Assembly (NCBI RefSeq): GCF_004402235.1
Contig: NZ_SOFS01000019.1
Location: 372,001-436,000, forward strand
Direction: 5' to 3'
Length of the DNA: 64,000 bases
From: Cryobacterium glucosi
GTDB lineage: Bacteria > Actinomycetota > Actinomycetes > Actinomycetales > Microbacteriaceae
The notes under the pieces are model-generated. The model was not told the origin of the DNA. It ran no database searches and worked only from the letters and a program-made list of their open reading frames with translations. The position numbers and the translations under genes are program-made. Each line of letters begins with the position of its first letter. Within the stretch, counting starts at the first letter, position 1. Positions 5,724 to 57,315 of the stretch are shown here, in pieces.

Positions 5724-7088
5724 CTACTTGCTGGTGACGGTGAAGCCCTGCTGGTTGCCGTAGTCCGCGGTGGCCTTCTGCCACGCGGTCAACCCGGCAT
5801 TGAGGTCGGACTTGGCGGCATACGCCTGGCCGACCGTGTCCTTGAAGATGCTGTTCGAGTAGACCTGGAACGGGAGGTAGCTCCAGCCGGGAACGACGTC
5901 CTTCGCGGACTGCACGAGGACCTGGTTGATCTTCTGGCCGCCGAAGTAGTCGCTCGTGGCGTTCAGGAACGCGTCGGAGTTCAGGTCGGCGACGGTCGAC
6001 GGGAATCCGCCGGCGTCGATCGAGATCTGGGTACCCGCGCCCTCGTTCATGTACTGGAGGAAACCGGCTGCGACGAGCTTGTTCTTGCTCTGCTCGAGGA
6101 TGGCATCTCCACCGCCGCCGTTCTCGGCGCTTGCCTTGTCGCCTGCCGTGTACGTCGGCAGCGGCGCGACCCGCCAGTCACCGGCGGCTTCCTTCACACC
6201 GGACTCGAGGTTGCCGGGCATCCAGGCACCGATGTTGAGGGTGGCGATGGTACCGTCGCCGAGGCCCTTGTACCATTCGTCGCTCCAGCTGGGCGTTGCG
6301 GCGAGGAGGTCGTTGCTGAGCAGCGTGTTCCAGGTGTCTGCGAACTTCTTCGAGCCCGCGTCCTGGAGGTTGATGCTGACCTTGGTGGAGTCCGTCGTGG
6401 TGTACGGCTGGCCGCCGGCCTGCCAGATCATGCTCGTGGTGAAGCCGGCGTCGCCGGTGTCGTTGGTGATGTAGGCGTTCGGGTTGGCCTCGTGCAGCTT
6501 CTTGGCCGTTGCGACGTACTCGTCCCAGGTGGTGGGAACGGTGAGGCCGTACTTGTCGAAGACGGCCTTGTTGTAGAACATGGCCATGGGGCCGGAGTCC
6601 TGCGGGAGGGCGTAGATGCCGTCGCCGAGCTTGACCGATCCCCAGGTGCTGTCGGTGTATTCGGACGCGTACGAGTCGAAGCCGTATGCGCTGAGGTCGG
6701 CGAGCGACTTGGACAACGCAAACTGCGGAAGCGCGTAATACTCGATCTGGGCGATGTCCGGCGCGCCGGACCCTGCCTTGATCGCGTTCTGGAGCTTGAT
6801 GTACTGATCGTTGCCGGTTCCCGCGTTGACGACCTTGACGGTCACATTCGGGTGTTCCTTCTCGAACGCCGCGGCGATCTTCTCCACGGCCGGGGCCCAC
6901 GCCCAGACGGTGATGGTCGACTTCTCGTTCAGGGCCGCGGTGATGTCCGCGGCGCTGGCGGTCGACGATGCTGTCGATCCGGTTCCGGATCCGGAACACG
7001 CGGCGAGGGACATGCTGAGCGCGAGTCCGGTGGCGACGACGACCGCGGTGCGACGCAGTGCCTTCCTGGTGCTGTGTGGTGCTTTCAT
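5724..7088 (-). CDS. Sugar ABC transporter substrate-binding lipoprotein (CUT1)
   Basis: An extracellular solute-binding protein family 1 lipoprotein of 454 residues that captures an oligosaccharide for import by the two permeases encoded upstream. The N terminus has basic residues, a hydrophobic segment and a lipobox ending LAAC at about residue 31, followed by a Ser/Thr-rich linker. The mature domain contains VWAWAPAVEKI and the family blocks NAIKAGSGAPD and VPTTWDEY. AAAGG lies about 6 nt before the ATG. Clustering with GH51, GH42 and GH35 suggests arabinogalactan or galactosyl-arabino-oligosaccharides as ligand, by inference. It resembles the binding protein at 59619-60932. Confidence 0.9.
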   Translation of the reverse strand: MKAPHSTRKALRRTAVVVATGLALSMSLAACSGSGTGSTASSTASAADITAALNEKSTITVWAWAPAVEKIAAAFEKEHPNVTVKVVNAGTGNDQYIKLQNAIKAGSGAPDIAQIEYYALPQFALSKSLADLSAYGFDSYASEYTDSTWGSVKLGDGIYALPQDSGPMAMFYNKAVFDKYGLTVPTTWDEYVATAKKLHEANPNAYITNDTGDAGFTTSMIWQAGGQPYTTTDSTKVSINLQDAGSKKFADTWNTLLSNDLLAATPSWSDEWYKGLGDGTIATLNIGAWMPGNLESGVKEAAGDWRVAPLPTYTAGDKASAENGGGGDAILEQSKNKLVAAGFLQYMNEGAGTQISIDAGGFPSTVADLNSDAFLNATSDYFGGQKINQVLVQSAKDVVPGWSYLPFQVYSNSIFKDTVGQAYAAKSDLNAGLTAWQKATADYGNQQGFTVTSK

Positions 7089-16324: not shown

Positions 16325-16731
16325 GGGTGCCTCCGGCACTGTCGGGGCGCGATCCGCGCATAGCCCAGTCTATGAGTAGATATGGAATCGTTATCACGGA
16401 ATTGTGCGCAGTATGCGACGCGCGCGTAGTGACTAGTGCGCGGCATGCCCAGACCTCGGCCCGGGTGGGCGTCAGAGTGCCCTGCGGAATCCGCTTTTCG
16501 AGGCCGCGGGGGCATGAAAAAACTCCTCGCGCACCCACCAGAGCCCAGTTACCCTTGCTACGTTTCCGTCCTGGGGGAGTTGGCTGAGATAGCGCCACGC
16601 GAGGAGCCGCTCCCAGTTTATGCGCAAAGCCGCACCGAGCCAAAAGCAGGTCCCTGCGCAGCGCGTTCTCAAGTGCCTTCAGAAACAGGTAAGATTCTTC
16701 GAGGTTGTTACCTTCGGGAAATGACCGGCCA
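16325..16731. other. Intergenic region between xfp and tRNA-Ser
   Basis: About 400 bases with no supported protein gene. It must hold the xfp promoter (minus strand) and the tRNA promoter; TAAGAT at 16690-16695 is a possible -10 for the tRNA but no convincing -35 was seen. A hairpin-like stretch around 16570-16618 (CTGGGGGAG ... CTCCCAG) has no recognised function. It lacks the conserved GGAAGCAGC core of the signal-recognition-particle RNA. Confidence 0.5.
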
Positions 16732-16819
16732 GGAGAATTCGCCTAGTGGCCTATGGCGCACGCTTGGAAAGCGTGTTGGGTGAGAGCCCTCGGGGGTTCG
16801 AATCCCCCATTCTCCGCCA
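16732..16819 (+). tRNA. tRNA-Ser (anticodon GGA)
   Basis: An 88-nt type II tRNA. The acceptor stem pairs GGAGAAT with ATTCTCC, followed by G and an encoded CCA. The anticodon stem CACGC/GCGTG encloses the loop TTGGAAA with GGA at 16766-16768, reading UCC and UCU codons. A long variable arm and a GGGTTCGAATCC T-arm are present. The last 27 nt are repeated twice more immediately downstream. Confidence 0.97.
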
Positions 16820-23764: not shown

Positions 23765-23836
23765 GCCTCGAGTAGACCACATCCGCGGCCGGCCCGACCC
23801 AGGGCGTCCGCCGCGACCGCGCTCCCACGCGTTCGA

Positions 23837-23862
23837 CACCCAAGAACTCCGTCGAATCGGTT
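23837..23862. repeat. Partial palindromic repeat family B (right arm only)
   Basis: The arm CCGTCGAATCGGTT at 23849-23862, together with the 12 bases before it, matches the right end of the family B element at 47639-47723 (20 of 26 positions). No matching left arm was found, so this is a truncated copy. It overlaps the stop codon of the FAD oxidoreductase gene. Confidence 0.55.
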
Positions 23863-25286
23863 CAGTGGCCTCGGCCCGAGACGCGATCGGCGATCGTCGC
23901 GAGCGGCGAGGTCGTCGTGCGGCGGCCGCCGTGCTCGGCGCGGTCCGCGATCCCGTACGCGCGATACAGCCCGGTCACCGCAAGCCAGCGCAGCGGCTCG
24001 GGCTCCCAGTTCCGCACCCGATGGTTGACCCAGGGCAGCTCACTCAGCGCGGCCGCAGCACCGGCCGCACCACCGGCCGCACCGCCCGGTGCGTTCCCGG
24101 CGGCCCGCGCGAGGATCAGCTCGGTCAGCGTGCGCCCGGCCAGGTTCGTGGTCGCGACCCCGGTTCCGACGTACCCGCCCGCCCAGGCGAGCCCGGTCGC
24201 CGGGTCGAGGCCGACCGTCGCGGCCCAGTCCCGAGGAACCCCGAGCACGCCGGACCAGGCGTGGTCGATCGTCACCCCTGTCGTCGCGGGGAAGAACCGG
24301 TTGAGGATGCCGCGCAGCGCGTCGACCGTGCCCGCAGGGGTGCGCCCGTCGGAGTCCGTCCGCGACCCGAACCGGTACGGCACCCCGCGGCCGCCGATCG
24401 CGATGCGGTCGTCGGCGGTGCGCTGGGCGTACATGTAGGCGTGCGCCATATCGCCGAGGGTCTCGCAAGCGTCCCAGCCGATGCTCTCCCAGACCGCCGG
24501 CGCGAGCGGCGACGTCGCGATCAGCGACGAGTTCATCGGCAGCCAGGCCCGGTGCAGGCCGCGCAGTCCCGCGGTGAAGCCTTCGGTCGCCCGCACGACG
24601 ACGTCGGCGGCGACGACCCCGCGCGCCGTGACCGCGCGGTGCGGCGTGATCTCGGTCACGGTGGTGTCCTCGTAGATCTCGACGCCGAGTGCCTCGACGA
24701 CCCCGGCGAGTCCGGCGGCGAGTTTCGCCGGGTGGATGCGAGCGCAGTGCGGGTGCCACATCGCTCCCGTGGCTCCGACGACGTTCACGCGAGCGGATGC
24801 CTCCGCAGCCGTCAGGAGCTCGACATCCGTTTCCGCCCACTCCTGTTCGGCCCGGGCGCTCGCCTCGAGCCGCCGCTGCTGGGGCACTTCGCACGCAACG
24901 GTGAACTCGCCGCCCTTGACGATGTCGGCGTCGATGCCCTCGGCGGCGGCGACCCGGATCACCTCGTCGACGGTGTCGTTCATCGCGGTCTGGAACCGGG
25001 CCGCGGAGTCCCGCCCGTGGGTGGCGACATACTGCTCGCGTCCTCCCGTGATCGAGTTCGTCAGCCAGCCGCCGTTCCGCCCGGAGGCCCCGTAACCGGC
25101 GAAACGCTGCTCGAGGATCACGATGCGCAGGCCGGGCGCCGCCTTCTTCAGGTAGTAGGCGGTCCAGAGTCCGGTGTAGCCGGCGCCGACGATGCAGACG
25201 TCGGCGCGGAGAGCACCGGGTAGCGGCGGACGCTGCGTCGGCCGGCCGAGCTGGTTCCACCAGAACGAGACCTCGCCGTTGATCAT
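23862..25286 (-). CDS. FAD-dependent oxidoreductase (DAO family)
   Basis: A 474-residue flavoprotein of the D-amino-acid oxidase/glycine oxidase superfamily, likely oxidising an amine or amino acid. The FAD-binding Rossmann motif is VCIVGAGYTGLWTAYYLKKA near residue 30, followed by EQRFAGYGASGRNGGWL, the arrangement seen in gamma-glutamylputrescine oxidase-like enzymes. The C-terminal block includes WAGGYVGTGVATTNLAGRTL. The ATG overlaps the stop of the upstream saccharopine-dehydrogenase-like gene (ATGA), so the two are coupled. An Ala/Gly-rich stretch near the C terminus is unusual. Substrate unknown. Confidence 0.85.
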   Translation of the reverse strand: MINGEVSFWWNQLGRPTQRPPLPGALRADVCIVGAGYTGLWTAYYLKKAAPGLRIVILEQRFAGYGASGRNGGWLTNSITGGREQYVATHGRDSAARFQTAMNDTVDEVIRVAAAEGIDADIVKGGEFTVACEVPQQRRLEASARAEQEWAETDVELLTAAEASARVNVVGATGAMWHPHCARIHPAKLAAGLAGVVEALGVEIYEDTTVTEITPHRAVTARGVVAADVVVRATEGFTAGLRGLHRAWLPMNSSLIATSPLAPAVWESIGWDACETLGDMAHAYMYAQRTADDRIAIGGRGVPYRFGSRTDSDGRTPAGTVDALRGILNRFFPATTGVTIDHAWSGVLGVPRDWAATVGLDPATGLAWAGGYVGTGVATTNLAGRTLTELILARAAGNAPGGAAGGAAGAAAALSELPWVNHRVRNWEPEPLRWLAVTGLYRAYGIADRAEHGGRRTTTSPLATIADRVSGRGH

Positions 25287-26632: not shown

Positions 26633-26714
26633 CCAATTCGACGGAATTTTCACCTCAAACGGCCCGAAACACCCGTCCCGGGTACACAAGCCTCACAAGG
26701 GGTGCCGAACCGGT
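26633..26714. repeat. Probable palindromic repeat family B, degraded copy
   Basis: The left arm CCAATTCGACGGAA is clear. The expected right arm is degraded (GTGCCGAACCGG, 8 of 12 matches) and lies within the last codons of the PAP2 gene. The 82-bp length and an internal CACCCGTCCC match the copy at 47639-47723. Confidence 0.45.
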
Positions 26715-47638: not shown

Positions 47639-47723
47639 AACCGATTCGACGGGGATTCTGCCCGGAAAGCCCTTCACACCCGCTCCCCCGCGAAATGGAC
47701 CAGAAGAGTCCGTCGAATCGGTT
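47639..47723. repeat. Palindromic repeat family B, intact copy
   Basis: An 85-bp element with perfect 14-bp ends (AACCGATTCGACGG and its complement) in the convergent gap between GH43 and a LacI gene. Related elements or parts occur at 23837-23862, 26633-26714 and, within xylB, 56501-56578. Confidence 0.75.
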
Positions 47724-55806: not shown

Positions 55807-57315
55807 ATGTCACTGGTTGCCGGAGTCGATTCCTCGACCCAAAGTTGCAAGGTCGTCGTTCGTGACACGGAAACCGGTGCGCTCGTTCGCAGCGGTCGCG
55901 CCGTGCATCCGGAGGGGACCGAGGTCGACCCACAGAAGTGGTGGGAGGCCCTGCAGGCCGCCGTCGCCGACGCCGGCGGACTGGGCGATGTCGCAGCGAT
56001 CTCGATCGCGGCCCAGCAGCACGGCATGGTCGTCCTCGACATCGACGGCCGCGTTATCCGCCCGGCTCTGCTCTGGAACGACACCCGTAGCGCCCCCGCA
56101 GCCGCAGAGCTGATCGACGAGGTCGGCGCCGCCGAATACGCCCAGCGCACCGGCCTCGTGCCGGTCGCGTCGTTCACAGCGACGAAGCTGCGCTGGCTGC
56201 GCGACGCCGAACCGGGCAACGCCGCGCGCGTCGCCGCGGTCGCGCTCCCCCATGACTGGCTCACCTGGCGGCTGCGCGGCTTCGGCCCGGCCGACGAGAG
56301 CCCTCTCGGCCCCGACCTGACGGCGCTGACCACGGACCGCTCCGATGTGAGCGGCACCGGCTACTGGTCGCCGATCACGGGCGAGTACGACCTCGACCTC
56401 TTCGAGCGCGCCCTCGGGCACGCGGCCGTGCTGCCGCGCGTGCTCGGCCCGGGTGAGATCGCCGGAGAGACGGTCGCACTCAGCCTCGCCTCCCCTGACG
56501 AATTCGACGGAGATCGTGCCGATTCGACACCTGAGACGACCAGTGCATCGTTCACCGACCTGGAATCCCCGTCGAATTGGGTACCCGCCGGCATCGTCGT
56601 CGGCGTCGGCGCCGGCGACAACGCGGGCGCCGCCCTCGGCCTCGGAGCGGGCGACGGCGACGTCATCGTATCGATCGGCACGAGCGGCACCGTCTTCGCG
56701 GTGACCGCGACCCCGGCAACGGATGCCACGGGCACGGTCGCGGGGTTCGCCGACGCGAGCGGGCTCTTCCTTCCGCTCGTCGCGACGCTCAACGCCGCGC
56801 GCGTGCTCGACGCGGTGCGCGGACTCCTCGGCGTGGACCACGACGAGCTCGGCCGACTCGCCCTCGAGGCGGAGGCCGGCGCGAACGGCCTCGTGCTCCA
56901 GCCCTATTTCGAAGGCGAGCGCACCCCGAACCTGCCCAACGCGACCGCGACCCTCTTCGGGCTCACCCTCGCCTCGACCACCCGGCCGAACCTCGCCCGC
57001 GCGGCGATCGAAGGCCTGCTCTGCGGGCTCGCCGACGGCCTCGAGGCCGTGCGCGGCCAGGGTGTCGTCGTCTCCCGGGTGCTCCTGATCGGCGGCGCGG
57101 CGCAGAACCCGGCCGTCCGCGGCATCGCGGCGCAGCTCTTCGACAACCCCGTCGTCGTTCCGGCCCCTGGCGAGTATGTCGCCGACGGCGCAGCCGTGCA
57201 GGCGGCGTGGGCGCTGACGGGAGCGCGACCGGAGTGGCGCATCTCGCTCGCGGCGGAGCCGGCGATCGACTTCCGCCCCGTGATCCGCTCGCAGTACGCC
57301 GCCCACCGCGTCTGA
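55807..57315 (+). CDS. xylB: Xylulokinase with an unusual internal insertion
   Basis: Phosphorylates D-xylulose to xylulose-5-phosphate. The 502-residue FGGY-family kinase shows [17 protein letters not shown] at the N terminus, [20 protein letters not shown], the catalytic base Asp in [13 protein letters not shown] (about D271), SIGTSGTVF and [14 protein letters not shown] lies 9 nt upstream of the ATG. Residues 231-258 (from [10 protein letters not shown] to ESPSNW) are not expected in the family and coincide with a palindrome-ended DNA segment resembling a repeat found elsewhere in the window. The insertion keeps the frame and lies before the catalytic Asp, so the enzyme is probably active. 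Confidence 0.95.
56501..56578. repeat. Palindrome-ended element inside xylB (family B-like)
   Basis: Perfect 10-bp ends, AATTCGACGG and its complement, enclose 58 bp; the 78-bp element adds 26 codons without changing frame. The ends match the family B core (ATTCGACGG). Inner sequence similarity to the copy at 47639-47723 is limited. Confidence 0.6.

Follow-up and report, generated by a model that had tools for sequence, protein, structure and literature searches.

The xylB locus of Cryobacterium glucosi

The window analysed was a stretch of 64,000 nucleotides from the genome of the cold-loving species Cryobacterium glucosi (G000:C41:372001-436000). It contains a xylulokinase gene, xylB, with a palindrome-ended insert, and further whole or partial copies of the same element (Table 1). 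The first-pass annotation had described a 78-bp segment in xylB with perfect palindromic ends, and such ends were found, 10 bp on each side; when the ends were extended inwards, 13 of 14 bp were complementary. It had placed the segment at residues 231-258. The insert is in frame as proposed, but its exact span is slightly shorter, from codon 232 through codon 257 plus one base of codon 258. The FGGY_N and FGGY_C matches bracket the insert, and the GAGDN motif, in which the Asp is presumably the catalytic residue of this family, lies about a dozen residues past its end. In an alignment of XylB proteins the insert was absent in all six element-free congeners with a close XylB. An AlphaFold model of XylB was poor (mean pLDDT 55.6, 13 sequences), with residues 211-260 in its least confident parts (blocks 23-37), and was kept out of the evidence. 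The data give no hint that the inserted hydrophilic loop of 26 residues takes part in catalysis. The intergenic repeat with matching ends that had been claimed elsewhere in the window is real and is the second intact copy in Table 1. An Rfam search over the window returned nothing besides an SRP RNA and a tRNA.

Table 1. Elements, genes and RNAs in the window (positions count from its first nucleotide)
Feature	Position	Strand	Remarks
xylB, xylulokinase	55807..57315	+	ATG at 55807, 502 aa; FGGY_N residues 4-223, FGGY_C residues 287-469
xylB element, core of 76 bp	56502-56577		26 residues encoded in frame
xylB element with perfect 10-bp inverted ends	56501..56578		ends 56501-56510 and 56569-56578
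approximate full unit at xylB, about 9 outer bp added per side	56492..56587		from the family consensus (outward composition of 348 + 340 flank sides); matched only partly here
second intact copy, intergenic, 75 bp	47644..47718		same ends; orthologous copies in G005 and G429 (C. breve ERMR7:08)
degenerate copy with an intact left and a decayed right end	26634..26714 (about)		orthologues with perfect ends in G006 and C. algoritolerans
right half of a copy	23816..23866 (about)		left half gone through a 95-bp deletion relative to G005
SRP RNA	16515-16611	-	Rfam; ordinary
tRNA	16732-16816	+	Rfam; ordinary

A dispersed element family in Cryobacterium

Genomes were searched with the pattern ATTCGACGG-N{35,65}-CCGTCGAAT, which contains both 9-bp ends and spans 53-83 bp. 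Both perfect ends were found at 11 places in the C. glucosi genome (G000), in comparison with none for the reversed control pattern, so the pairing of the ends is not due to chance. A genome with at least one perfect-ended copy was called a carrier, the genus-wide count being one of perfect and not of degenerate copies. By this definition 22 of 57 Cryobacterium genomes were carriers, with 1 to 129 copies each, and the controls gave 0 (gap 50-63). In a search across the bacterial family, 5 of 398 genomes were positive: 4 of the 10 from the same genus and 1 of the 388 from other genera. The sole match in those 388 genomes (L119, genome G271) was a single chance-like hit of 71 bp whose interior was dissimilar, located within an ORF that we take to be ruvB-like; it was counted in the tallies of length and placement and was omitted from the analyses of covariation, periodicity, close copies, flanking proteins and orthologous pairs. 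A scan of GTDB species genomes matched at least 117 stretches and is therefore no full census; all of the matches listed were titled Cryobacterium. The search for a phage origin gave one viral-contig match, which was AT-rich and chance-like. In a single-gene tree of carriers and non-carriers the deep nodes were weak (48-67), and C. sinapicolor and G012, apparently one genome, were counted once.

The xylB insert is almost certainly a copy of this dispersed family, which has been found so far only in Cryobacterium and has inverted ends, a fixed spacing and a largely free spacer with A-tracts about every 10 bp. The other possibility, that a low-complexity XylB linker became palindromic by accident during ordinary divergence, would agree with the variability of this linker in all aligned relatives. 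However, the same ends occur at the 11 places here and at up to 129 elsewhere with a reversed control of 0, and the insert is missing from the six element-free congeners; the genome-wide counts already refute the accidental origin, and its probability is negligible. The first-pass annotation had known of no such description in its group of bacteria, and no account for Cryobacterium was found among the matches listed from open-licence full texts, nor in PMC7381226 and PMC12306157, which were searched by term.

Genomic placement and coding copies

The position of 162 copies with enough flanking sequence was determined with a home-made gene caller based on codon usage. Neighbouring genes ran in the same direction at 68 copies (and at 6 more that overlapped an ORF edge) and were convergent at 62 (and at 3 more), while 12 copies lay between divergent genes, 10 inside an ORF and 1 at a contig end. 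The median distance from the stop codon was 43 nt. No recurring neighbour gene was seen among 607 proteins flanking 178 copies, which were predicted with the same caller; the largest cluster consisted of 11 alanine-rich low-complexity proteins at 11 loci, and the others had at most 7 members.

Three of the 10 copies inside ORFs were dropped by hand, namely L119 (another genus), L147 (an ORF across an N) and L232 (an ORF tail in another frame). The 7 remaining copies were in only two genes: xylB in G000, G005, G006 and C. shii, and a DUF7059/MTS/DUF7782 methyltransferase gene in G005, C. breve TMT4-23 and C. sinapicolor. Ready spread into genes without breaking the frame, as suggested earlier, is not what these 7 of 162 placed copies show. 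All 7 were 76 bp long, were read in one frame, encoded 26 residues of the form xFDGD...SPSN and stood at a linker position; the association of 76 bp with coding sequence rests on two events, because the two loci were inherited by several species. The coding interiors were unalike between more distant species. A protein search of 25 relatives located the methyltransferase gene in 5 carriers, and all of them had the insert: G000 (where an end base has changed at one position), G003, G005, G008 and G012. None of 10 element-free congeners had it, and the gene was not found in G006 by this search.

Besides these copies, all of them read in one frame, there was a single doubtful case in another frame: in L232 of C. 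breve ERMR7:08 (5829-6491), a predicted ORF, which we take to be a kinase-like tail, may read through the element as a C-terminal extension. Expanded low-complexity linkers (poly-Ala or Pro/Ala/Ser/Val repeats) were observed beside the coding copies of L143 (C. shii xylB), L075 (G006 xylB) and L152 (C. sinapicolor methyltransferase).

Length and ends of the elements

Among 176 distinct copies, including the one 71-bp copy of L119, 150 were 75 bp and 21 were 76 bp long. The inverted ends comprise about 26 bp each, with the consensus CCGTCGAATTSGTTCGGG and a nearly invariant 9-bp core, ATTCGACGG, whose partner is CCGTCGAAT. Conservation reached inwards to about AGATTTTG and outwards to about 9 bp past these ends (consensus TSGTTCGGG). 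When one perfect copy per locus was set aside at the 117 named loci, 30 further copies were obtained, of which 22 had no mismatch, 8 had one and none had two in the 18 end bases; 7 of the 8 copies with one mismatch belonged to C. melibiosiphilum. The scan of these loci at higher mismatch gave a single site with 3 mismatches, apparently a chance match in coding sequence, and 29 with 4 mismatches as against 5 in the control, which used the ends read backwards and provides a rough estimate of chance.

A subtype with other outer bases was present in C. melibiosiphilum and C. frigoriphilum. Clustered elements, some of them 140-190 bp apart and with subtype ends ...GTACCATTCGACGG, were seen in L218 (C. 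frigoriphilum), L107/L112 (G003) and L245 (C. melibiosiphilum); the gene beside one of these groups is presumably recR-like.

Helical rhythm and folding of the interior

The interiors had a mean pairwise identity of 0.43-0.49 in the better orientation in four genomes, in comparison with 0.30-0.31 for shuffles. A/T was limited to short blocks about every 10 bp, arranged symmetrically about the centre. In the central 57 bp, the best period of the A/T peaks was 10.0 bp, although the peak was broad (0.57 at 10.0, 0.44 at 10.5 and 0.33 at 10.75). In 123 non-redundant copies, AAA or TTT made up 179 of the 227 block triplets that were all A/T, whereas 77 were expected under position independence and the proportion in the 117 loci overall was 35%; a TpA step occurred in 17 of the 227, against 26%. 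Both polarities of the A-tracts occur, a mixture not expected if the copies had simply descended from a single sequence. The A-tract phase score was 0.70-0.83 in five genomes and 0.53-0.61 after shuffling; this score is partly circular, because the scored positions came from the same copies, and the triplet test is less so. The phase was weakest in G000 (0.70, as against 0.77-0.83 elsewhere).

Compensatory change was found in the end stem only up to position 17. In a covariation test of all pairs, no interior pair exceeded z 2.6 and none in the named helices stood out. RNA folding of the interiors was slightly above that of shuffles (mean z -0.83, or -0.52 when the pattern of G/C and A/T was kept), which speaks slightly against an interpretation by the DNA duplex alone. 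An interior hairpin of RNA or single-stranded DNA was rejected, since no interior pair covaried and the folding signal was weak. The element could still act as an RNA element, a 3'-end hairpin with the end stem and a variable loop that serves as terminator or mRNA stabiliser. Its site behind stop codons and the compensatory change in the stem agree with this, and 3 of 4 copies folded better than shuffles (z -3.8 to -7.0). However, the outward consensus contains no U-run of an intrinsic terminator after the stem, the xylB copy of the window folded no better than shuffles (z 0.29), covariation singled out no interior pair, and an RNA loop does not explain the 10-bp rhythm of the A-tracts. We regard the RNA hairpin as unlikely.

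The rhythm also invites comparison with the BIMEs of E. coli and the gyrase motif, as far as these are described in excerpts of PMC6379681. The elements might lie at gene ends as strong wrapping sites of DNA gyrase, a role put forward for BIME-2: they lie behind genes and between convergent genes, they share with BIMEs the combination of modules, and the 130-bp gyrase motif of E. coli is characterised by phased G/C content (PMC6379681). Unlike that motif, in which the period is 10.75 bp outside a 36-bp centre, the Cryobacterium elements have their broad optimum at 10.0 bp, and they are mostly single units with near-invariant ends, not REP arrays (PMC6379681). Gyrase would also seem to leave the near-invariant ends and the restriction to part of one genus unexplained, and we consider it improbable, slightly more so than the RNA hairpin.

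Age, turnover and loss

In a tree of xylA and xylB, G000, G005 and C. shii formed a supported clade; the placement of G006, which also has the xylB copy, was not settled by this tree. Judged from these carriers, the xylB copy is old. Element sites in sampled DNA of G429, which had been selected for the surroundings of elements and covers little of that genome, matched 9 of the 29 copies of G005.

There were 71 pairs of copies with both flanks alike, 66 between different loci and 5 between tandem copies in one locus, which are not orthologues; both members had been picked for perfect ends, and gapped interior identities are high even for unrelated sequence. In the 66 between-locus pairs, interior identity was on average lower than flank identity, and several pairs with about 80% flank identity had nearly unalike interiors. 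Eight of the 66 had interiors that equalled the flanks in conservation, and change of the interior therefore looks episodic. One half was kept and the other was unlike in 5 of the 71 pairs. The ends are near-invariant, and the interiors usually diverge faster than the flanks.

Comparison of the 29 copies of G005 with G000 gave 25 that could be placed, of which 11 were alignable, 1 was a half and 13 were lost or replaced, so the element is dispensable in G000. Pairs with more than 6 gaps were omitted from the count of differences, and L308/L328, whose flanks differed at 112 of 573 positions, was retained. In the 11 alignable copies the differences were 8/198 in the ends, 67/455 in the interiors and 349/6361 in the flanks; without L308/L328 they were 4/180, 50/414 and 237/5788, respectively. 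The divergence between G000 and G005 across the window was 8.3% at 4-fold sites and 5.4% at intergenic sites. The interiors change faster than these neutral-like sites; given that perfect G005 copies had been chosen, the ends are not clearly slower than the 4-fold rate. The family seems to be decaying in the G000 strain. At the site of one G005 element, the orthologous place in G000 (L331, about 1384-1442) holds a different inverted repeat with 21-nt arms that are 86% complementary, perhaps of another repeat family.

The chief rival explanation is a miniature mobile element, similar to a MITE or REPIN, in which a transposase acting in trans would read the ends, the bent spacer would aid synapsis over 75 bp, halves would be swapped by recombination between copies, and the copies would otherwise have no function. 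Like MITEs, the elements are short, have terminal inverted repeats and carry no gene of their own, and their copy number ranges from 0 to 129 within one genus. Half-modules of G005 (e.g. ...CACGTGGGAG..., ...CCGGAAAGCGCTT... and ...TTCTGAACCGGTT...) recur in differing combinations, which shows a mosaic build, and near tandem copies exist. Invariant inverted ends, fixed spacing and a less conserved spacer are also the architecture of REPINs (PMC3116915). On the other side, PF01797 (Y1/RAYT), the one transposase family that the search covered, matched 0 of 57 Cryobacterium genomes, while the control was positive in 5 of 14 genomes, and membership in the RAYT/REPIN system was rejected. A clean empty site with target duplication was not seen either in the 13 junctions obtained from 16 G005/G000 comparisons or in 7 further ones, some of which did not concern empty sites; the 13 junctions were ragged or filled with other sequence, L309/L340 being nearest to a clean empty site. 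In the one wide-spaced end pair inspected, 3.84 kb in G429, no autonomous parent transposon was found, and the pair consisted of ends of separate 75-bp copies. Many positions are, moreover, common to several species. We give the mobile element a substantial chance, though well below even.

Comparison with known palindromic repeats

On the tests made, the elements resemble REPINs and Rickettsia palindromic elements (RPEs) in architecture and are members of neither. REPINs of Pseudomonas fluorescens SBW25 are REP doublets that form hairpins with a GI spacing of 71 bp and come with RAYTs and hairpin compensation (PMC3116915). The Cryobacterium elements share with them two invariant inverted ends at a fixed spacing, a less conserved spacer, an extragenic position and many copies per genome (PMC3116915), but their spacer has phased A-tracts and no compensatory pairing past position 17.

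RPEs are about 150 bp long and encode a conserved peptide (PMC10969869). The likeness to them that the first-pass annotation had drawn is correct in part. As in RPEs, a dispersed palindromic insert lies in frame within unrelated genes (PMC10969869), and a second gene with an insert in the same frame was found here. In contrast to RPEs, the Cryobacterium copies are old, rarely genic and mostly intergenic; they measure 76-78 bp, were seen inside two genes only, and their coding interiors have no conserved peptide in common, only the ends xFDGD...SPSN.

The REPs tagged with CGTC, among which are RPE-4 and RPE-6, have a stem of 8-9 bp beside the tag and mostly a CCA tail (PMC3733652). Common to both groups are CGTC at the ends, inverted pairs, a position behind genes or between convergent genes, some intragenic copies that code for 20-30 residues, and the lack of a known dedicated transposase (PMC3733652). 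By inspection only, no 8-9 bp stem with a CCA-type tail was seen in the Cryobacterium consensus CCGTCGAATTSGTTCGGG.

A bent two-site target as the preferred explanation

The explanation that we prefer, with a probability of roughly 0.5, is that the insert is a family copy and that the family is a bent target with two sites for a protein. The second part alone, that the element is the bent two-site target of a putative protein, has in our estimate a little better than an even chance. The two ends would be half-sites of a putative bivalent DNA-binding protein; the phased A-tracts would curve the spacer and turn both ends towards the protein simultaneously, and a small protein-DNA loop would form. 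Such a target would account for the constant length, for the helical rhythm with an otherwise free sequence, for the near-invariant ends at old positions and for the location of copies after stop codons or between convergent genes. The coding copies would add a hydrophilic loop of 26 residues to the protein, and the two of them would be tolerated because they are in frame, lie in variable inter-domain linkers and contain no stop. Several findings count against the bent target: no binding protein for the elements was found; the xylB copies of G000 and G005 were without phase (z 0.3 and 0.7); G000 has lost the element at 13 of the 25 placed sites; the ends do not differ between G000 and G005 at a rate clearly below that of 4-fold sites; the interiors fold slightly better than shuffles; and in the 8 pairs mentioned above the interior was conserved to the same degree as the flanks. 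A role of the elements in place, at the gene ends where they stand, is possible, and we propose it tentatively.

A broader proposal is that the family represents a new kind of chromosomal element, a mini-loop of DNA and a bivalent protein, with selection acting on the shape of the spacer (A-tracts phased at 10 bp and a fixed helical length) and hardly on its sequence. Such elements would be kept at set places at gene ends, species would retain or lose the whole set along with the putative protein, and copies could persist in coding sequence. We regard this as rather unlikely, somewhat less probable than the mobile element. If the proposal is true, a mini-loop in coding sequence constrains a protein through a requirement at the DNA level, and the coding copies illustrate how such a constraint can give an enzyme a loop of fixed length.

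For palindromic repeats of the REPIN type, the explanation is a Y1 transposase together with a hairpin. Here a REPIN-like architecture exists in a genus in which no Y1 enzyme was found by the PF01797 search, with a spacer that follows a rule of DNA shape and not of base pairing. The great freedom of the spacer sequence makes some 200 natural variants available to test which feature a protein reads. With 22 carriers and 35 non-carriers of perfect copies in one genus, gene content offers a way to seek the gene of the partner.
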